Shown: positions 17,310-32,418, numbered from the stretch's first letter. The stretch is DNA of 32,557 bases from an uncultured Thermomicrobiales bacterium (GCA_902806415.1 CADCWN010000202.1:1-32557); one strand, 5' to 3'. Notes: generated from the sequence alone by a model not told the origin. Translations and numbers: made by a program.

Positions 17310-19061
17310 TTGGCGCGACGGGCGATCGCCTCCAAGCGGTTCAGGAACAGCCCTGGTATCGGCGCACCGCGCACCGGTTGGCGAATCGCGCTCGCATTCT
17401 GCCTGCTCTTCATCTTCCTCACGTTGACGCCCGCCGCGCGCCCGGTCGCCGCCGAAACGCCAGCGCGCGGCTTGCGGGTCGAAGGGGCGCAACTGATCGA
17501 CGCCCGTGGGCAGCCGGTACGGCTCCTCGGGGTCAACCGCGCCGGCACCGAATACGCCTGCATCCAGGGCTGGGGGCTCTTCGACGGCCCGCACGACGCG
17601 GCCTCGGTCGCCGCGATCCGCTCCTGGGGGAGCAACGCCGTCCGCGTCCCGCTCAACGAGCACTGCTGGCTGGGGCTGGACACGGTGGCGGAGGGGCTCG
17701 GCGGCGAGGCGTATCGGGCGGCGATCCGCGAGTGGGTCGGCACGCTGCGCGCGGCGGGGCTCTATGTCATCCTCGATCTGCACTGGGCCGCGCCAGCGGG
17801 CTTGCGCGCCGATCGGCTGCGCCCGATGCCCGATCGCGACCATGCGCCGGAGTTCTGGCGTCAGGTGGCGTCGGCCTATCGCGACGACGGCGCGATCCTC
17901 TTCGACCTCTACAACGAGCCGTTCCCCGATTTCAATCGCAATACCGAGGAAGCCTAGCGCTGCTGGCGCGATGGCGGCACCTGTCGCGGCTTCGACTACA
18001 CCGCCGCCGGGATGCAGGAGTTGGTGGACGCGATGCGCGGCACCGGCGCGCGCAACGTCATCCTGCTCGGCGGGGTGCAATACGCTAACGGCTTCTCCCG
18101 CTTCCGCACCTACGCCCCGCGCGATCCGCTGAATAATCTCGCCGCCTCCTGGCACTCCTACAACTTCATGCACTGGGACAACGAGACGACCTGGGACGCG
18201 CAGATCGGTATCCCCACCGCCGGGGTGCCGCTGATCGCCGGTGAGATCGGCCAGGATGACTGCAAGACCGCCTTCCTGGAGCGAACCCTGCGCTGGCTCG
18301 ACGCGCGCGAGGCCAGCTACCTCGGTTGGGCCTGGAATACTTGGGCGCGCTGCGACGGCCCGGTCCTGATCGACGATTACGACGGCACGCCGTCCGCAAT
18401 GGGCCGGGGGCTCTACGACCATCTGGTGCAACTCGGCCCGGCGCCGCTCGCGCCCCGGCCCGGCGAGACGAGCGGCGGCGCGGGGGAGATCGATCCGTCC
18501 GCGCCGGTCGCCGCGCCGGACCCGACGAGCGCGCTGATCCTCTACGATGATGTCGTTCCGGCCCCGTTCTGGGTCCGACCGGTCGGAGTCAACGCCACCG
18601 ACCCCTGCGACGGGCAGACGCGGGTCGGCGGGCGTTGTTCCTACGCCCTCTCGCTCAGTTCATGGGGGGCGCTGAGTATCGGAAGCGATGGTGGCTTCGC
18701 GACGGGCGGGTATGACCGACTCGAATGGTCGTTCAATACCCACTGGCAATCGCTGGCAAACTTCTCGATCGCCCTGACCGCGCAGAATAGCGGCGAGGCA
18801 ATCCGCGCAATCCCGCTCGATCAGGCCACGATCCTGGCCGACCTCGGCGATGGCTGGGTCCGCCTGGCCGTGCCGATGGCCGACCTCAACCCCGACGGCG
18901 GGGCGATCGGCGCGCTGATCCTGCGCAACGCCAGCGGGCGCGACCTCGGCACAATCCACCTCGACGACGTGCGCTTCGTGCCGGACACGGACAGCCTCGG
19001 CGTGGCGCTGACCGCCGGGGCACAGGCGACCGCTATCGATCGGCCCGCAGCGGCGCGCTGA
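17310..19061 (+). pseudogene. GH5-type secreted glycoside hydrolase interrupted by an in-frame TAG
   Basis: Read through one stop, this is a 583-codon gene. Residues 22-48 form a signal peptide or anchor. A (beta/alpha)8 cellulase-like domain follows with the acid/base Glu in DLYNEPF (E203) and the nucleophile Glu in IAGEIGQDD (E312), then a C-terminal beta-rich domain (about residues 410-560) resembling a carbohydrate-binding module. Codon 216 (17955-17957) is TAG, flanked by NTEEA and RCWRDGG in the same frame with no indel; related proteins usually have Trp here, so TGG to TAG is the simplest change. The truncated product would keep E203 but lose E312. The TTG start at 17310 follows a GAGGGG tract. 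A recent nonsense mutation, a sequencing error or suppression are all possible. Confidence 0.8.
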
Positions 19062-23706: not shown

Positions 23707-25428
23707 TCAGCGGTTCACTGCGTAATACGCCTCGATCACCTGGCGGGCGATCCCGAGGGCCGCGCCCGCGCCGGAGCCGCCGCGCTCGACGATCACCGCC
23801 ATCGCGATCTCCGGCGGCCCATTCGGCTTGCCGGCAAAGCAGATGAACCAGGAGTGGGAGTCGCCATCGCCGAGTTCGGCGGTGCCGGTCTTGCCGCCGA
23901 TGACGAGACCATCGATCTTCGCCCTGGTGGACCCGCCACGCTCGACGCTGGCGAGCATCAGCGTGCGGACCTGGTCGGCGGTGTTGGCGCTGATCGGGGT
24001 CAGCCAGGTCTTGGCGCGGGTCTGCTCCAGCAACTCACCGCCGGGGCTGCGGGCCGCGCCGACGATGTACGGCTCGGGCATCTTGCCGCCATTAACCATC
24101 GCGGCGGTGATCAGCGCCATGTGCAACGGTGTGGTCAGCAATTCGCCCTGCCCGAACCCGGTATCGGCCAGGGCCGGCTTGCTCGACAGGTAGTTCGGAT
24201 CGGACGAGATCGAACTGGCCGCGCCGCGCTGCCCGAGCGCATTCGACAGGCCGTTAAAGGGGATCTCCTCGCCGAACCCGAACTTCTTGGCATACTCGTT
24301 CGTCCGCACCGTGCCGGTGTCGAGGGCGATCTGCGCGAAGACGATATTGAGCGAGTAGAGGTAGCCCTCGGTGACGCTGTACTCGTTCTTCACCGGCTCG
24401 GGTCGGTTCAATTCGATGATCTGGTGACCGTCGATCACGATCTCGCCCGGATCGGGATAGATCTTGGTGGGCGAGACGATCCCGCCATCGAGCGCGGCGG
24501 CGACGGTGAAGGTCTTGAACGTCGAGCCGGGGACGAAGAGCCCTTGCGTGCCGCGCGGCAGGAGCGGATCGCCCGACCCCTCGGCGTTGAGCGCCGACCA
24601 GTACGCCTTGGCGCGGGCGACATCGCGCTCCGACTCGCGCGGATCGATCGCCAACTGCTGGGGATCGAAGCGCGGCGCGGCGGCGTTAACCAGGATCGCG
24701 CCGCTGCGCGGGTCGAGCGCGACGACCGCCCCGCGCCTGCCGGTCGCGTCGAGCGCCCGGTCGGCGACCTGCTGGAGGCGCAGATCGACGGTGAGGACGA
24801 CATCGTTGCCGACCAGGGGCTCGTGGAGGAGGTCGCCCGCGAGGGTTTCGAATGGGTTGCCGCCGGATGAACCGCGCAGATAGCGATCGTAGGCGCGCTC
24901 AATCCCCGCGAGGCCGTAATATTGCGGGCTGTAGTAGCCGACGACGTATGAACTGGTCGAGGGGTAACTGCGCAGGGCGAAGCCATCCGGGGTGATCGTC
25001 GTGTCGGCCAGGATCTGGCCGTTGCGATCGACGATCCGCCCGCGCTGCTGGCGCAGTTGTTCGAGCAGGATCCGCTGATTGACGATCGTGTCGCCGTTGG
25101 CGGTCGGTCGGCTCTCGGTCGCCAACTCGTCCGCCCGGACGACTTGCAGCCGGACGAGGTGGATACTGGTCAAGAGGAAGGCGACGACGAGCAGCGTGCC
25201 GATCCGCACGACGGTGCGATTAAAGGTCGGGAGGTTGGGCGGCAGGCGCGGCCAGAGGAGCAGGACGAAGAATGGCGCGCTGGCCGCGAGCGCCAGCAGC
25301 CAGCGCGCGTCGGTGTTCCCCTCGCGCTGCAGGATCCCGATCCCCAGGATCGCGGCGGCGGCCAGGAACGCGCCGAAGCGCGCCAAGCCGCTGCCGATGC
25401 CGCCGCCGAGTCCGTCGTCAGGTGTCAC
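23707..25428 (-). CDS. Class B penicillin-binding protein (PbpA/PBP2-like transpeptidase)
   Basis: A 573-residue membrane-anchored peptidoglycan transpeptidase. It has N-terminal hydrophobic segments (about 20-35, 43-60 and 73-90), a dimerisation-like region (RGRIVDRNGQILA), and the penicillin-binding motifs SxxK (S302-TF-K305), SxN (S359-L-N361) and KTG (513-515, GGKTGTAE). The layout, with more than one N-terminal hydrophobic segment, differs from the single-anchor form usual in E. coli PBP2/PBP3. The start is GTG 25428 with GAGGG about ten bases upstream. It lies 127 bases after a RodA/FtsW gene, its expected glycosyltransferase partner, as in the actinobacterial rodA-pbpA pair. The gap is filled by heptamer repeats. 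Confidence 0.9.
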   Translation of the reverse strand: MTPDDGLGGGIGSGLARFGAFLAAAAILGIGILQREGNTDARWLLALAASAPFFVLLLWPRLPPNLPTFNRTVVRIGTLLVVAFLLTSIHLVRLQVVRADELATESRPTANGDTIVNQRILLEQLRQQRGRIVDRNGQILADTTITPDGFALRSYPSTSSYVVGYYSPQYYGLAGIERAYDRYLRGSSGGNPFETLAGDLLHEPLVGNDVVLTVDLRLQQVADRALDATGRRGAVVALDPRSGAILVNAAAPRFDPQQLAIDPRESERDVARAKAYWSALNAEGSGDPLLPRGTQGLFVPGSTFKTFTVAAALDGGIVSPTKIYPDPGEIVIDGHQIIELNRPEPVKNEYSVTEGYLYSLNIVFAQIALDTGTVRTNEYAKKFGFGEEIPFNGLSNALGQRGAASSISSDPNYLSSKPALADTGFGQGELLTTPLHMALITAAMVNGGKMPEPYIVGAARSPGGELLEQTRAKTWLTPISANTADQVRTLMLASVERGGSTRAKIDGLVIGGKTGTAELGDGDSHSWFICFAGKPNGPPEIAMAVIVERGGSGAGAALGIARQVIEAYYAVNR

Positions 25429-25440
25429 GGTTGGGTAGCC

Positions 25441-25557
25441 CTCAGCTATCAGCGATCAGGGATCAGCGCGCGGTCCGTCCGGGCGCTCAGCCATATTAAC
25501 GCACCAGAGGACGACTCGGCTTGCTGACCGCTGAAGGCTGACGGCTAACAGCTCATC
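25441..25557. repeat. Facing heptamer arrays between RodA/FtsW and PBP genes
   Basis: Left array 25441-25468: CTCAGCT, ATCAGCG, ATCAGGG, ATCAGCG. Right array 25523-25557: GCTGACC, GCTGAAG, GCTGACG, GCTAACA, GCTCATC. The right words are imperfect reverse complements of the left ones (GCTGA core). The right array overlaps the RodA/FtsW stop codon by two bases. Confidence 0.9.
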
Positions 25558-26983
25558 ACCGCAGCGCGCCACGCCGGGGATCGGAGATATAGAGGAGGAG
25601 GCCGACGAGGACAAAGTTGGTCAGCAGCGAGGTGCCGCCGTAGGAGATGAACGGCAAGGTGATCCCGGTCAGCGGGATGAGGCGCACCACCCCGCCGACG
25701 ATGATCAGCGACTGCATCGCGATGATCGTCGTCAGCCCGACCGCGACGAGGCGGGCGAAACCATCGGCGGCGCGCAGGGCGATGTAAAGGCCGCGATAGG
25801 TCAGCAGGAGGTAGAGCGCGAGGGTGCCGATCGTGCCGAGCAGGCCCAACTCCTCGCCGATCGCGGCGAAGACGAAGTCGCTCTGGATGAGCGGGATGAG
25901 GCTGAGGTTGCCGTAGCCGAGGCCGGTGCCGAACAGTCCCCCCGAGGCGAACGCATACTGACTCTGGATGATCTGGAAGCCGGAGCCGAGGCCGCGCGGC
26001 CAGGGATCGAGCCAGATCGCCACGCGCGCGCCCACGTGCGGCGCAACGCGGTAGATGGCATAGGCCCCGAGTGCGAACGCTGCCAGCCCGGCCACGACGT
26101 AGATCAACCGACCCGAGGCGACGTAGAGCATCGTCAGGAAGATCGAGAAGTAGAGGAGCGCGGAGCCGAAATCATTCTGGATCGCGACGATCGCCAGCGC
26201 CAGCGCCCACATCAGGCCGAGCGGCAGGAGGTACGGGATCGGCGGCAAGCGCAGCGGGCCGAGGCGATACTCGGAGGCGAGGAGCTCGCGCTTATCGTCG
26301 AGATAGGCAGCCATGAAGAAGACCAGCAGCAGCTTGACCGCCTCGCCCGGCTGCACCGCGATCGGCCCGACGACGATCCAGAGCTTGGCCCCCTGGCCAA
26401 AGTCGGTCCCGACGAGCATTGTTAGGACCATCAGGCCGATCGCGGTGAAGCCGACGAGATACTTGTAGCGCCGGAGCAGGTGCAGCTGCCGGAAGAGGAC
26501 GACGATCCCCCAGAGCAGGCCGAAACCGACCGCGATGTAGAACGCCTGCCGCTGCGACACCCCGGTCAGGGGCGGATCCTGGCGCTCCAGGACGGGGTGC
26601 AGGCGTTGGATGATGATCAGCCCCAGCCCGGCCATCGTCGCGGTGATCGGCAGGAGCAGTTGGTCGCCCTGGAAGCCGATCGCGCTGAACCAGAGGTTGA
26701 GGATGTAGAGGAGGGCGACGAACGCCAGGCTGATCCAGATGTCGCGCCAGGTGAAGGCGGTGTCGCGTCGCGGCACCAGGAAGATCGTCAGCAGCCCGAC
26801 GACCGCCATCAGCGAGGGGACGATCAGCAACTGGAATTCGGTCAGGCGAAACCGGCGCAACACATCGCGGAACGCGGGGCGCGGGGCGCGGAACGCGGAA
26901 TTGGGGGAGGCGTGCGCTCCTTGTGCCAATGCTCCTGCCCCCCTACGCCCCTGATTCCGCGTTCCGCATTCCCCGTCCCGCAC
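25556..26983 (-). CDS. RodA/FtsW/SpoVE-family peptidoglycan glycosyltransferase
   Basis: A polytopic SEDS protein (up to 475 residues, about 10-12 helices) that polymerises lipid II. Conserved features are WLDPWPRGLGSGFQIIQSQY (region of the catalytic Asp), GGLFGTGLGYGN, AAIGEELGLLG, and the C-terminal GITLPFISYGGTSLLTN. The start is uncertain: the track GTG (26983) lies four bases after the DUF3090 stop but has no ribosome-binding site, and its first 40 residues come from repeat DNA. The next in-frame GTG (26863) gives a more normal N-terminus (LRRFRLTEFQLLIVP) but is also poorly preceded. It may be translated by coupling to DUF3090. It pairs with the downstream class B PBP. Confidence 0.85.
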   Translation of the reverse strand: MRDGECGTRNQGRRGAGALAQGAHASPNSAFRAPRPAFRDVLRRFRLTEFQLLIVPSLMAVVGLLTIFLVPRRDTAFTWRDIWISLAFVALLYILNLWFSAIGFQGDQLLLPITATMAGLGLIIIQRLHPVLERQDPPLTGVSQRQAFYIAVGFGLLWGIVVLFRQLHLLRRYKYLVGFTAIGLMVLTMLVGTDFGQGAKLWIVVGPIAVQPGEAVKLLLVFFMAAYLDDKRELLASEYRLGPLRLPPIPYLLPLGLMWALALAIVAIQNDFGSALLYFSIFLTMLYVASGRLIYVVAGLAAFALGAYAIYRVAPHVGARVAIWLDPWPRGLGSGFQIIQSQYAFASGGLFGTGLGYGNLSLIPLIQSDFVFAAIGEELGLLGTIGTLALYLLLTYRGLYIALRAADGFARLVAVGLTTIIAMQSLIIVGGVVRLIPLTGITLPFISYGGTSLLTNFVLVGLLLYISDPRRGALR

Positions 26984-26988
26984 TCATC
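26869..26988. repeat. Heptad-word inverted repeat at the DUF3090 - RodA junction
   Basis: Left array 26869-26903: GGAACGC, GGGGCGC, GGGGCGC, GGAACGC, GGAATTG. Right array 26954-26988: ATTCCGC, GTTCCGC, ATTCCCC, GTCCCGC, ACTCATC. GCGGAACGCGGAAT (26888-26901) and ATTCCGCGTTCCGC (26954-26967) are perfectly complementary. The words match those in the helicase element. Confidence 0.9.
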
Positions 26989-27532
26989 AATCGTCGCCCA
27001 GCCGCTCGGCGCGGGTCAGGTGACCATTCGAGGGCGGGCAGAAGTGCGGGCCGCCGGAGAGCGGCTGGCCGCACATTGTGCAGCGCGGGCGCCCGGTCGA
27101 GACGATCCCGGAGATCTGCTCACTGAGGCGGCGGAACTGGCCCTGCCGGATCAGGCAGCGCAAGGTGGGCGGCCCCTCGGGATCGCCCTCGATGTCGTGG
27201 GCCTGGAGGAGGCAGAGGCGCTGCTCAGCCTCGTAGCCGAGGGCGAGGGTGCCGATCTTGAACTCGACCGTCGGCGCATCCAGCAGCGGGCCGACCGGCT
27301 CGGGCGGGCGCGGGGCCAGATCGAGGCGCTTGAGGCGGCGCGGGCCGAGGTGGGCGAGGAGCCGATCGATGGCGTCGCCTAGCGCCTGGACCTGCTCTTT
27401 CTCGATCCAGAGGACCGCCGTCTCGCCGCGCTCATTGCCGAGGATCAGTCGAAAAGTGCGCTGGCCGGGCCGACCTATCGCCTCAGCCTCCAGCCGATTC
27501 ACCGTCGCGAAATCGTAGCGTATGTCGTCCAT
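26987..27532 (-). CDS. DUF3090-family protein with C-terminal zinc-ribbon-like motif
   Basis: A 181-residue soluble protein. DFATVNRLEAEAIGRPGQRTFRL at the N-terminus, LWIEKEQVQALGDAIDRLL and the C-terminal CTMCGQPLSGGPHFCPPSNGH match DUF3090, a family of unknown function from Actinobacteria and Chloroflexota. The C-terminal CxxC ... H-F-C arrangement suggests a metal site. The start ATG 27532 has AGGGGAGG immediately upstream, so the 21-residue extension is dropped. The stop lies three bases before the earliest possible RodA start. A link to cell-wall synthesis is suggested only by position. Confidence 0.8.
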   Translation of the reverse strand: MDDIRYDFATVNRLEAEAIGRPGQRTFRLILGNERGETAVLWIEKEQVQALGDAIDRLLAHLGPRRLKRLDLAPRPPEPVGPLLDAPTVEFKIGTLALGYEAEQRLCLLQAHDIEGDPEGPPTLRCLIRQGQFRRLSEQISGIVSTGRPRCTMCGQPLSGGPHFCPPSNGHLTRAERLGDD

Positions 27533-27730
27533 GCCCTCCCCTGGGGTCGCATTCGGGATCGTATCAGCATGCGGGATGCGCGAACAGCGAGGCACCGACG
27601 TCGACCGTCTGCCGGATAGGATCGGCGATCCGCACCACTTTAGGATAGCACCTCACCCAAACCGCTGCCAGCGAAGGAAACAATCCTGCCGTGATGAGGG
27701 GAGGCGGCGCTGCCCAGGCCGTTCAAAACC

Positions 27731-27765
27731 GCGCCCCGCCCCCGCTAATAGCGGGGGCGGGGCGC
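27731..27765 (-). terminator. Terminator of the giant muralytic-protein gene
   Basis: A perfect 15-bp stem (GCGCCCCGCCCCCGC / GCGGGGGCGGGGCGC) with a TATTA loop on the minus strand is followed by GGTTTTG. It begins 15 bases after the stop of the minus-strand gene at 27781. Confidence 0.85.
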
Positions 27766-27780
27766 AGCATACAGATTTGG

Positions 27781-30700
27781 CTAGCGCCCGTCGCCGCTGT
27801 CCTCCACAGGCTTGGGCGGGAGGATGAGCTCGACGCGGTCGGTGACGACGATCGTGCGCCCTTCCTCGTCGGTGAAGCGGACGTAGATCCGCTGCTCGCC
27901 CGGCTGGTCGAGGAGGGTGAGCACCTTGGTCGGGGCGAACGGCTCGGCCTCGGTCCAGGCGGTGCCGTCGAAGCTGAACTGCATCTTGATCCCGTTCGGC
28001 GCGAGGCCCTGTGTGGCGAGCGTCAGCCCAACATCCAGCGTCACCGTCTCATCCTGCCCCGCAGTGAGAAACTGCCCGGCACTGGCGAGCGTCGCCAGAG
28101 TCTCGGCTGTGGGTGCGGCCTGCCAGAGGGCGAGATCCTGGAAGGTCGCGTTGATGACCCGCCGCCCGTCCAGGTCGGAGCCGAGGAACAGCGTCGCTCC
28201 CGGCGGCAAGGCGAAGTCGGCGACCGCGCTCCACCCAACAATCTGCCCATCCCGCAGGAAGGTCAGCGTGCTGCGGTCCCAGGTGAGGGCGTAGTGGCGG
28301 GTGACACCACGCTCCCACGGCATCGTCGCAATCGTCTCATCATCCCAGCGCAGCGTCGCTTGAGCGCCCGCGACGGTCAGTGTCAGGCGATCGTCGAGCG
28401 CAAAGACGACGGCACCATCGGTGACCGAGCCGCGCGGCGTGGCCCAGAAGGCGAGCGCCCCGCCCTCCGCCCTGATCAGCCCGTCGAGCGGCAGGCGCGC
28501 CGCCGTCGGCAGGCGACCGGAGAGAGAGCTATCGGCCGCGCGGTCCCACCCGTAACCCGAGCCGAGCGCGCCATCGGCGTAGCTGGTGGCATACGGCTTC
28601 GCCTCGAGCTGCGCGCCGTCCAGCTCGACGATCGCGCCGATCGGCACGATGATCTGCCGCTCGGTCCCCGCAGTGCCGGTCGCGCCGCTGAAGGCGATCC
28701 GCTGCCACTCGGCGGTCAGCGGGGACTCCTGCGGGCGCAATCCCGACATCCCGAGGGCGATGCTACCCCCCGGAGTCGCGCTCTCCCCGGCGGGGAGCGC
28801 GCGAGCGTAGACCGACCAGGTCGCCGCATTGCCATCCCCGGCGGTCGTCGCGAGGATGACGGGCCCGGTGCCCTTCGTGTTGTCGATGCGCAGGCTGCGC
28901 TTGCCGAAGAGTGCGCTATCCGAAGGGAGGGCGGTCGCGACATTCTCCGGGGCGCTGCGGGTCGTCCAGCCTTCCGCGCCGCGCTCGAAGCTCGGATTGG
29001 TGACGAGGTTCGTCGTCGCTTCCTCCACCAGCAAGCCCTCGGCCTCGCGGACCTTGCCGGTCGGGGGTGTGCCGGTCGCGGCGACCACGGCCCCGGCACC
29101 CAAGGTCGCGCTGCCTCCCTGCGCGATCGGCGTCGCGAAACGCAGCGGGCCGCTGACCGTCAGCGCGCGCCCCCCGAGCGCGGGGAGGGTCGCGCCATCG
29201 AGCGGGATCAGCGCCGTCAGATCAGCGCGAGGGTTGGCAACGAGCGCGGCGCGCGGCTCACCACGGCGGATCGTGTAGCGAACGGCCGTCTCGGCGGTGA
29301 GCCCGCGGAAGGTCCGGTTGCCCGCCGCATCGGTCTGCACGAAGAGGAGCCGATAGGCCCCCTCGGCGACCGGCGCGGTCAGCCAGTCAATCTGTCCATT
29401 CTCGCCCTCGACCGACCCGATCGGCAACCACTGGCCCCGGTCGCTGCCGTCCCTGGCGCTGTTGACGTAGGCGTCGATCCGCGCGCCCGGCAGCCCATCA
29501 GCCCGGCCCGCCGCGACGATCGTCACCTTATCGGCATTCGACGGCCCGGCGGGCGCGAAGCCGAATTCCAGCGCCCGCGCGCCGGTGTCGCTGGCGATCG
29601 GGCGGTTGGTGCTGACGATGCTGAGGCCGTTCCGCAGGTATTGTCCCTCCATCGGCTCGGGGCGGATCGACATCCACTGGCCGTCGCGCAGGATCCAGAG
29701 GCCGAAGTGGAGGTGCGAGCCGGTCGAGTTCCCGGTGCTGCCGTTCAGGCCGATCGGCGTGCCGTGCAGGACCGCCTGGTTGACCTTGATGCCGGGGTTG
29801 ATCCGCGGGTCCCCCTTCAGGTGGACATAGAGGGTGCGGAGTTGCGAGCCATCAGGCGCGACGTGATAGAGCTCGACAACCCACGCGCCCGCCCCGTCCT
29901 GATAGACGTTGTTCACGATCCCATCGGCGGCGGCGAGGATCGGCGCGCCATCGTCCTCTTCGCTGCGCGGCCAGGTCCCCTTGTTGAAATCGACCGTGTA
30001 GTAGTTGCCCAGCCGGTCGGTGTGGTAGCCATCGCCGTAGAACGAGCCATCGCCGCCGACATACCAGGTCTCCCCAGCGGTCCAGGGGGCGTACAACTGG
30101 ATCGGCGAGGCCATGTCCAGGTGGCGCGAGTTGCTCGGCAGCAGCGGATTCTGCGGCGCGGCGAGCGGCGTCCCGCCGGTGCGGCTCGGATCGAGCAGAT
30201 TGGGATCGGGGATCGCGCCGCCGAGATAGTGGCTGGCCCAGGAGAGGATCAGCTCGACGTACCAATTGGCGTTGTTGTAGGCGAAAAGCGCGCGGCGGAT
30301 GTCGCCGGGGGCACCGCTATCTTTCAAGTAGAAGGCGGCGGCGTAGATCGCCGACTCGGCATCCCAGATCCCCATCATCCCGAGACCCTTGCCGGTGGCC
30401 GCATCGACGCGCTGCATTACCATCCGGTAGGTACCCGGCAAGAACTGCATCATCCCCAGCGCGCGCTCGTTCTCGGTCCCCGCCAGTTGCGGGATGAACG
30501 GGCCGGTCGCGCTCGGAGTGAAGTTCGACTCGACGCGGGCGATCGCCAGCAAAATCTCCTGCGGCACGCCGGTCAGCGCGGACGCCGCCGCGAAGGTCGG
30601 CAGGAGTTGCGACGGCGCGACCGCCGGCCCGGCGGTCGGCGGGGGAATAATCGGCGTCGCGCCGTTCGTGCCGGTATCCGTGCCGGGCGCGGTGCTCGCG

Positions 30701-32139
30701 CCCGGCGACGGCGAACCGCCCGGCGCGGGTGTGGTCACCAGAACCAGCAGACCGGCCACGATCCAGCCGTTCGCGCCATCGGCCTGCACCGGCCACCAAG
30801 CGTACCCATCAGCGCTCTGGCTCGCGCCGATCACATTCAGGACGGTGCCGCTGGCGATCGTCCGCAGGATCGTCGCGCTGGTCGATGGCTCGGCGCGGAG
30901 ATTCGCGGGCGAGCTGACCGTCACCTGCACACCGGGGCCGATCTCCGTGGGGGCTGGCGCGGGCGCGGGGGCCGGCGAAGCGGAAGGCGACGTAGACGGG
31001 GAGGTGGTTGGGGCGGTGGCAGGGGCCGACGCGATCAGGTCGGCGATGATCCAACCGGTGAACCCTGCCCCGGCGACAGGCCACCAGCGGTGCCCCTCGG
31101 CATCCTGCGCCGCGCCGCCGATCGTCAGCACCGTGCCGCTATTGACGGTGCGCACAACCGCCGCCGCCGCCGGCTGCGCGCGCACGGCGGCACTGCCGGT
31201 CGGCGAGTTGACGATCACCTGCGCGCCGGGCGCGAAGCCGCCCGCGGCGGGGGCTGTGGGGGCGGGCGAAGGCGCGGGGGTGGCGGTGGGAGAAACCGTC
31301 GGTGCGGGGGCCGCGCCCGGTGAGGTCGCGGGGACCGGACTCGCGCCCGGCGCGGTGGAGGACGACGGACTCGCGTTCGGTGACGGGCTCGGGCTCGGCG
31401 CGGCACTCGGCGCGCCGGAAGGGGCGGGGGCCGCCGAGGGGGCGGGCGCAGGGGAAGGTGCCGGCACACCACTCGGTGCCGCAGTCGGCGCGGGGACAGA
31501 CGGCGCGGGCGTCGGCGTCGGTGTGGCGACGGCGGTTGGCTGTATGGGGGCCGCAGTCAGGGCGGGGGGTGGCGTGGACGTCGCTGGCGCAGGCGTCGCC
31601 GGGGTCGGGGCGGCGGCTTCGCCGGCGGGCGTGGTGCGCGCGGGCGGGGTGGCCGGGGTGGCGATGGGGGAAGCGCCCGGCGTGAGGGTCGCGGCGGAGA
31701 CCAGCGGCGCGCTCAGCGCGAAGTCGCCCTGCTGCTCCCGGCCCGAGTCGCGACCGCGAACGATGACGGTCCAGTCACCGGCCTGATAATTCGCCGCCGT
31801 GCGGAGGGAGAAGGTGAACGCGCCGTTCGCGTCGGCGGTGACGGCACCCCCGCCACCGGCGGAGCCGACGCGCAGGGTCGGCGGCGTGCCACCCTGAGAA
31901 AGGAGCGCGAGGGTTTGGCCGTAGGGGGTGATGACGGACGGATCGAGCGCCTCGTTCGGCGCGAAGTCCGCGCCGCTCACCGCGATCGCCGTTCCCGCCT
32001 CAACCGCCTCGGGCGTCGCGACGAGGGTTCCGGTCGCCCCGGCGGTGGGGATGCGCGAGAACGACGCGACGCCGAGATGCTGAATCAGTAACAGGGCGAT
32101 TAAGCCCAGGAATGGGGCACGCCACACACGCTTCCTCAC
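27781..32139 (-). CDS. Giant secreted multidomain protein: SH3-like pair, lytic transglycosylase and M23-like domains
   Basis: A protein of about 1452 residues, numbered here from GTG 32139. A signal peptide (RVWRAPFLGLIALLLIQHLG) is followed by a beta-sandwich (about 35-145), a 150-residue Pro/Ala/Ser/Thr linker, and two SH3-like repeats (about 305-370 and 402-465, each ending in GWI). A lytic transglycosylase domain (515-635) has the catalytic Glu in IARVESNF (E537) and ALGMMQFLPGTY. An M23-like domain (690-825) has D717, YVHL (H773) and SHLHFGLW (H809, H811). The C-terminus holds several beta-sandwich modules, including a LamG-like one. At the canonical M23 first ligand position (HxxxD) there is Tyr713; H705 might substitute. 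GTG 32139 sits directly before the signal peptide with GGAG upstream; the track ATG 32268 is the alternative. Confidence 0.8.
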   Translation of the reverse strand: MRKRVWRAPFLGLIALLLIQHLGVASFSRIPTAGATGTLVATPEAVEAGTAIAVSGADFAPNEALDPSVITPYGQTLALLSQGGTPPTLRVGSAGGGGAVTADANGAFTFSLRTAANYQAGDWTVIVRGRDSGREQQGDFALSAPLVSAATLTPGASPIATPATPPARTTPAGEAAAPTPATPAPATSTPPPALTAAPIQPTAVATPTPTPAPSVPAPTAAPSGVPAPSPAPAPSAAPAPSGAPSAAPSPSPSPNASPSSSTAPGASPVPATSPGAAPAPTVSPTATPAPSPAPTAPAAGGFAPGAQVIVNSPTGSAAVRAQPAAAAVVRTVNSGTVLTIGGAAQDAEGHRWWPVAGAGFTGWIIADLIASAPATAPTTSPSTSPSASPAPAPAPAPTEIGPGVQVTVSSPANLRAEPSTSATILRTIASGTVLNVIGASQSADGYAWWPVQADGANGWIVAGLLVLVTTPAPGGSPSPGASTAPGTDTGTNGATPIIPPPTAGPAVAPSQLLPTFAAASALTGVPQEILLAIARVESNFTPSATGPFIPQLAGTENERALGMMQFLPGTYRMVMQRVDAATGKGLGMMGIWDAESAIYAAAFYLKDSGAPGDIRRALFAYNNANWYVELILSWASHYLGGAIPDPNLLDPSRTGGTPLAAPQNPLLPSNSRHLDMASPIQLYAPWTAGETWYVGGDGSFYGDGYHTDRLGNYYTVDFNKGTWPRSEEDDGAPILAAADGIVNNVYQDGAGAWVVELYHVAPDGSQLRTLYVHLKGDPRINPGIKVNQAVLHGTPIGLNGSTGNSTGSHLHFGLWILRDGQWMSIRPEPMEGQYLRNGLSIVSTNRPIASDTGARALEFGFAPAGPSNADKVTIVAAGRADGLPGARIDAYVNSARDGSDRGQWLPIGSVEGENGQIDWLTAPVAEGAYRLLFVQTDAAGNRTFRGLTAETAVRYTIRRGEPRAALVANPRADLTALIPLDGATLPALGGRALTVSGPLRFATPIAQGGSATLGAGAVVAATGTPPTGKVREAEGLLVEEATTNLVTNPSFERGAEGWTTRSAPENVATALPSDSALFGKRSLRIDNTKGTGPVILATTAGDGNAATWSVYARALPAGESATPGGSIALGMSGLRPQESPLTAEWQRIAFSGATGTAGTERQIIVPIGAIVELDGAQLEAKPYATSYADGALGSGYGWDRAADSSLSGRLPTAARLPLDGLIRAEGGALAFWATPRGSVTDGAVVFALDDRLTLTVAGAQATLRWDDETIATMPWERGVTRHYALTWDRSTLTFLRDGQIVGWSAVADFALPPGATLFLGSDLDGRRVINATFQDLALWQAAPTAETLATLASAGQFLTAGQDETVTLDVGLTLATQGLAPNGIKMQFSFDGTAWTEAEPFAPTKVLTLLDQPGEQRIYVRFTDEEGRTIVVTDRVELILPPKPVEDSGDGR

Positions 32140-32231
32140 GGTTGGGTATTCTCCATCTCGTCGTATCGTCCCACGCTGGCACAGCGTCCCACCTGGCGTA
32201 CCATCGCCGCCCAGGGTTATTTCAGTCCGGT

Positions 32232-32237
32232 AGTGTA
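32232..32237 (-). promoter_or_regulatory. Candidate -10 box upstream of the giant secreted protein
   Basis: TACACT on the minus strand lies about 95 bases before GTG 32139 but downstream of ATG 32268. If real, it would support the shorter start. No -35 at ideal spacing was found. Confidence 0.25.
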
Positions 32238-32385
32238 ACGCACTTATCCGCCGAGAGGTTGCAACCATTCGGGACGATCGTCCCGAGCGACCGCGCGTTG
32301 CAGCGTGCGCCGCGAAGGTGCACGCCTATGTCCTGGAAAGATCGAACGGTACTCTAGCGGCGCGCGGGCCGATTGGCAAATCAAA

Positions 32386-32418
32386 GGCCGGGGCTCCCGC
32401 ATGGTGGGAGCCCCGGCC
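32386..32418 (-). terminator. Terminator of a minus-strand unit entering from the right edge
   Basis: A perfect 13-bp stem (GGCCGGGGCTCCC / GGGAGCCCCGGCC) with a 7-base loop. On the minus strand it is followed by TTTGATTTG, on the plus strand by no T-run, so it probably ends transcription coming from beyond 32557. Confidence 0.65.

Follow-up and report, generated by a model that had tools for sequence, protein, structure and literature searches.

The minus-strand gene at 27781..32139 of a 32,557-nucleotide contig from an uncultured Thermomicrobiales bacterium (GCA_902806415.1, CADCWN010000202.1:1-32557; this whole stretch is called the window) encodes one large protein that joins an SLT and an M23 domain, and it raises the question whether both domains cut peptidoglycan, given that the M23 part lacks its textbook first histidine, and which wall the protein acts on. 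The answer we favour, with somewhat better than even confidence, is a secreted dual-activity peptidoglycan hydrolase that remodels the cell's own wall in this lineage of the Chloroflexota, its M23 domain probably being active via residue H749. The gene, its domains, the kept residues, the relatives and the synteny are observed; from these we infer the domain activities, the ligand role of H749 and the role as an autolysin.

The open reading frame begins with an ATG and spans 27781-32268 (-), giving 1495 residues, while the version starting at the GTG at 32139 (27781-32139 (-)), which has a GGAG 11 nt upstream, encodes 1452. Residue numbers refer to the ATG-started protein (P0001) and exceed those of an earlier note on this DNA by 43. 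The GC content by codon position (0.67/0.61/0.86) shows the coding pattern of a 68% GC genome. A 1210-residue open reading frame on the opposite strand was rejected as a shadow, as the codon-position GC marks the minus-strand frame as the coding one. Together with the Pfam and NCBIfam domain matches, these data bear out the multidomain secreted protein described in the earlier note. A probable signal peptide, VRKRVWRAPFLGLIALLLIQHLGVASFSRIPTA (32041..32139 (-)), aligns to MHRLPVVGLVCLLLAS at the start of a relative and shows no lipobox cysteine; with the SLT and M23 domains it agrees with the proposed single secreted chain of glycan-cleaving and peptide-cleaving parts. Two relatives are used for comparison below. 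In the same genome (G000), contig C22 carries a paralogue of 1024 residues (L010:570-3644, minus) with NlpC/P60, SLT and M23 domains, and the genome G001, from another genus of the same family, contains an orthologue of 1455 residues on C12 with SLT, M23 and LamG domains and no SH3 match.

The SLT (GH23) domain (30271..30594 (-); Pfam E 4e-12) matches PF01464 with 46.2 bits against a cut-off of 21.3. Aligned with other SLT domains, it keeps the catalytic glutamate E580 within IARVES and, further along the chain, the motifs GMMQFLP and AYNN. An AlphaFold2 (AF2) model from an SLT-M23 alignment of 16 rows, in which SLT alone was resolved, has predicted local distance difference test (pLDDT) values mostly above 90 in this domain, and Foldseek matched it to phiKZ gp144, Slt70, MltE, MltC and MltF. 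The domain would cut the glycan strand.

The M23 domain including its N-terminal loop (29629..30126 (-); Pfam E 9e-14) matches PF01551 with 51.9 bits against a cut-off of 28.7. Its core was modelled with pLDDT values of 84-96 by ten-residue blocks from a 36-row alignment (generic M23 and SLT alignment scans supplied rows for the structure predictions), and Foldseek related the model to lysostaphin, LytM and DipM with a probability of 1.00, consistent with the LytM fold. Four of the five canonical M23 positions are kept in the alignment: the zinc-ligand aspartate D760 (29989..29991 (-)), the catalytic histidine H816 of YVHL (29821..29823 (-)), and both histidines of the HxH motif, H852-L-H854, catalytic and zinc-binding, respectively (29707..29715 (-)). 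The histidine at -4 alone is missing. The HxxxD motif reads YYTVD, with Y756 (codon TAC, 30001..30003 (-)) at a position that is histidine in the paralogue and the orthologue; this is exactly the Tyr713 of the earlier note. The alternative ligand named there as "H705" is likewise present, except that it is H706 in that numbering and H749 in ours (30022..30024 (-)). This histidine is invariant in the paralogue and the orthologue, so that in a wider sense the H(x)nD and HxH motifs are present as H749-(x)10-D760, H816 and H852-L-H854. The zinc ligands would be H749, D760 and H854, with H816 and H852 as catalytic histidines, and the domain would cut the peptide cross-link.

The H(x)10D spacing is compatible with an M23 enzyme, because published H(x)nD spacings cover n = 3 to n = 12, including n = 7 in gp13 and n = 12 in LasA (PMC9662197). 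In LasA and pseudoalterin (M23A), the first histidine is provided by an upstream loop, with n > 3, as proposed for the window protein (PMC9662197). The same applies to a set of M23 domains from the class Chloroflexia. Most M23 domains examined in that class carry the canonical -4 histidine, but one subfamily (GAEWQVTAGWEAANHQQAWNYYAVD, GEQWRIIQGYACGTHNGWDRYSLD and relatives; n = 8-9) has a lone histidine 9 or 10 residues before the aspartate and tyrosine or arginine at -4, and retains YxHL/M and HLHF. This comparison was limited to rows with correct anchoring, since the automatic first-motif search mis-anchored others, e.g. L021, L055, L057 and L089. The window sequence, GETWYVGGDGSFYGDGYHTDRLGNYYTVDF, resembles this loop-His form with its histidine at -11, and hhalign pairs H749 with the Chloroflexia loop histidine and D760 with the aspartate at 98.6% probability. 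The loop-His profile matches LasA (3it5) and pseudoalterin (6ik4) across the loop, unlike most other PDB matches; a profile of the N-terminal part only gave no PDB match. LasA, pseudoalterin and the loop-His relatives examined differ from the window protein in that their M23 domains are not fused to SLT. On these comparisons, H749 probably serves as first zinc ligand in place of Y756, and it is reasonably likely that the M23 domain is active, as predicted from its sequence. The "degenerate" M23 of the earlier note is thus correct as to the absent -4 histidine, whereas degeneracy as such is mostly unsupported in view of the four kept positions, the -11 histidine, the existence of loop-His M23 domains and the hhalign pairing. 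Of the two options left there, a binding M23 domain or the use of an upstream histidine, we judge the second to be the better one.

The surroundings of the gene bear on the wall that is acted upon. Downstream, at a distance of 185 nt, lies a DUF3090 gene (26987..27595 (-)), followed by a gene of the ftsW/rodA type (25556..26983 (-)) and a gene for a pbpA-type class B penicillin-binding protein (23707..25428 (-)). The order hydrolase-DUF3090-ftsW-pbpA-HSP70 is also found in G001, which upholds the proximity to rodA-pbpA pointed out earlier and extends it to a second genus. The hydrolase gene itself is followed by an intrinsic-terminator-like hairpin (27729..27765 (-)) with 17-bp perfect arms at 27731-27765, then GGTTTTG, and a fold z of -7.5 versus shuffles. 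A consensus terminator scanner made no call at this hairpin because the T-run is short; the perfect inverted repeat 3' of the gene and its z value nevertheless support the dedicated terminator claimed before. Near the contig end, at 32386-32418, a further inverted repeat has perfect 13-bp arms (GGGAGCCCCGGCC) around a 7-nt loop and, read on the minus strand, leads into TTTGATTT; it probably terminates the gene that lies upstream of the hydrolase. Owing to the domain content and the neighbourhood, a role as autolysin or in remodelling, the latter already suggested in the earlier note, is favoured as the most economical reading. The hydrolase would remodel or open the cell's own wall during growth, near the elongation machinery, with the SH3b repeats and the C-terminal sugar-binding-type modules anchoring it to the wall.

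Several observations weigh against this reading. The rodA-pbpA linkage is known from two genera only, and 12 other genomes of the order have DUF3090 without ftsW within ~1.5 kb on each side; the linkage may hence be a trait of the window's family. The SLT-annotated domains of CwlP (YomI, Bacillus subtilis prophage SPbeta; PMC10653849) and of PrgK of pCF10 (PMC11323569) turned out to be muramidases, and the SLT domain of the window protein may likewise yield reducing ends instead of 1,6-anhydro products. In the AF2 model, the loop 727-753, which includes H749, is below pLDDT 50, and the M23 core of the window protein aligns better to canonical M23 domains than to the loop-His set. Moreover, the closest relatives, the paralogue on C22 and the orthologue on C12 of G001, have histidines at both -11 and -4. 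LytU of Staphylococcus aureus shows the same double-His spacing (KYQHSPFDGKHYGIDF) as the paralogue, and its measured zinc ligand is the -4 histidine, H76 (PMC5519744), the one lacking in the window protein. From the double histidine of both relatives and the LytU ligand it follows that the window copy may have lost the true ligand; a single CAC-to-TAC change may have sufficed, and in a metagenome an assembly error is possible.

Such a loss leads to the alternative that best survives, although we consider it unlikely: the M23 domain of the window copy no longer has a metal site and instead binds the wall or regulates the SLT domain of its own chain, while the M23 domain of the paralogue is active. 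In its favour, the change from histidine to tyrosine at the canonical position occurs in the window copy only, and there is a precedent in the LytM domain of PrgK, which contains no metal and lowers the activity of the SLT/muramidase domain beside it (PMC11323569). PrgK, however, is degenerate at both HxxxD and HxH, whereas in the window protein a single canonical position is changed and HxxxD alone is missing. In addition, the evolution of the M23 domain is not relaxed, as its nonsynonymous divergence (dN) from the orthologue equals that of the SLT domain (0.172 and 0.175, respectively), and loop-His M23 domains with tyrosine at -4 exist.

An active M23 domain using H749 would also allow a more tentative view of its origin. 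The M23 domain of the paralogue bears both candidate zinc histidines (FHNDGAGMHYDVDF), and a counterpart of this paralogue, with frameshifts, is located on C76 of G001. The two G001 copies (L042:6524-10891 and L043:6086-11187) share 97-99% DNA identity over the greater part of SLT and the beginning of M23; identity falls to 76% for the linker and to roughly 60-75% across most of the C-terminal part, a pattern that suggests gene conversion of the catalytic cassette. It is conceivable, if rather doubtful, that the zinc ligand was handed over within one M23 lineage, from relatives with the -11 and -4 histidines to a window copy with the loop histidine alone, next to a triple NlpC/P60-SLT-M23 paralogue whose catalytic cassette is exchanged through gene conversion. 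If so, a change of metal affinity or substrate is possible.

Secretion and sugar-binding-type modules would equally suit an exported lytic weapon or a scavenging enzyme directed against other bacteria. No immunity-like or secretion-system gene was recognised nearby, though, and in two genera the gene stands beside the cell's own wall-synthesis genes, which makes such a function improbable; for the predatory role mentioned in the earlier note no evidence was found.

The distribution of the domain combination was searched with an SLT-M23 alignment, which found matches where a scan of the genome contigs with the whole protein had found none. It matched both domains together only in the window's family, in 2 of 158 genomes of the class and 1 of 400 of the phylum; the nearest named relative is the metagenome-assembled genome Thermomicrobiales bacterium YX1bin8 (JAUJMV010000009.1, JAUJMV010000003.1). 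The architecture had been regarded as unusual outside phage tails and conjugation systems. While the exact arrangement is confined to the window's family in the genomes searched, a 2019 review already lists SLT1 combined with CHAP, NlpC/P60 and PM23 (PMC6403190). The SLT-M23 fusion is therefore of a known kind; what sets the window protein apart as a variant is its chromosomal context near rodA-pbpA, together with the lectin-like modules at its C-terminus. CwlP also carries SLT and M23 in one large chain, with both domains reported active as muramidase and DD-endopeptidase (PMC10653849); it is a phage tail protein, in contrast to the window gene, which has neither phage context nor detectable phage relatives. 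PrgK (LytM-SLT-CHAP) and SLT-M23 proteins of conjugative Bacillaceae plasmids (WP_252222728.1) likewise combine glycan-cleaving and M23-type domains, but are membrane-bound parts of conjugation systems, and the plasmid M23 has a canonical HYGTD in place of YYTVD. On Bacillaceae plasmids SLT-M23 and SLT-C40 fusions occur, the former adjoining TraG, and in other Chloroflexota SLT-NlpC/P60 and SLT-C39-like proteins adjoin conjugation-type membrane proteins. That the window protein is a wall-opening enzyme of conjugation or a phage tail, like these SLT-peptidase fusions, is nonetheless highly improbable, as no secretion, tail or relaxase gene was found among the neighbours tested, these neighbours are of chromosomal type with conserved synteny to rodA-pbpA, and nothing related turned up in phage and viral collections queried with alignments of SLT-M23, of M23 and of the loop-His set. 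In particular, no type IV secretion system gene is present among the window neighbours (DUF3090, ftsW/rodA, pbpA, HSP70-like, PsiE and alpha/beta hydrolase), with the upstream side ending at the contig end.

Some of the fusions met in these searches deserve mention in their own right. At L190 and L192, both from other Chloroflexota, a gene for a multi-pass membrane protein resembling TrbL/VirB6 precedes the SLT-C39-like and SLT-NlpC/P60 genes, which suggests uncharacterised conjugation systems. A protein joining C39 and SLT occurs in G005; at L079/L044 (contig C371) of this genome, the catalytic glutamate is replaced by asparagine (ARVNSGF), so that this SLT domain may be inactive judging from its sequence, and the sister on C394 keeps ARIESGF. 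Contigs C205 and C247 of G017 (L046, L047), from the same order as the window, encode SLT with a partial M23 and another linker style, and possibly are foreign contigs in the bin.

The remaining parts of the hydrolase surround the two catalytic domains. The signal peptide is followed by an N-terminal immunoglobulin (Ig)-like region (31705..32031 (-)), weakly matched by NCBIfam GxPGS_dom (E 0.19) and conserved in the G001 orthologue, and by a linker rich in Pro, Ala, Ser and Thr (31243..31701 (-)). Two SH3b repeats precede the SLT domain, the first (31033..31227 (-)) matched by Pfam SH3_3 in two stretches and the second (30745..30933 (-)) at residues 455-508. Behind the M23 domain lie an Ig-like region with a weak Big_13 match below the curated Pfam cut-off (29251..29592 (-)), a beta-sandwich resembling spike-fibre proteins and carbohydrate-binding modules (28579..29031 (-); NCBIfam NF048003, E 1.6e-10), and a LamG-like Laminin_G_3 domain (28099..28470 (-); Pfam E 1.6e-8). 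Both SH3_3 matches (7e-16), SLT, M23 and Laminin_G_3 exceed the Pfam gathering cut-offs. Elsewhere in the window, a GH5 cellulase-like gene is broken up between two frames, 17310-17954 and 18012-19061 (+), which cover profile positions 2-132 and 148-269; the cause is a frameshift or an assembly error.

Wall hydrolases of the Chloroflexota have been little studied. The lineage described here packs two or three different peptidoglycan-cutting domains into a single secreted polypeptide, in a setting that is neither phage nor conjugative. Its M23 domains provide a naturally occurring test case for the identity of the zinc-binding histidine in family members without the textbook HxxxD, which many annotations would wrongly call inactive.

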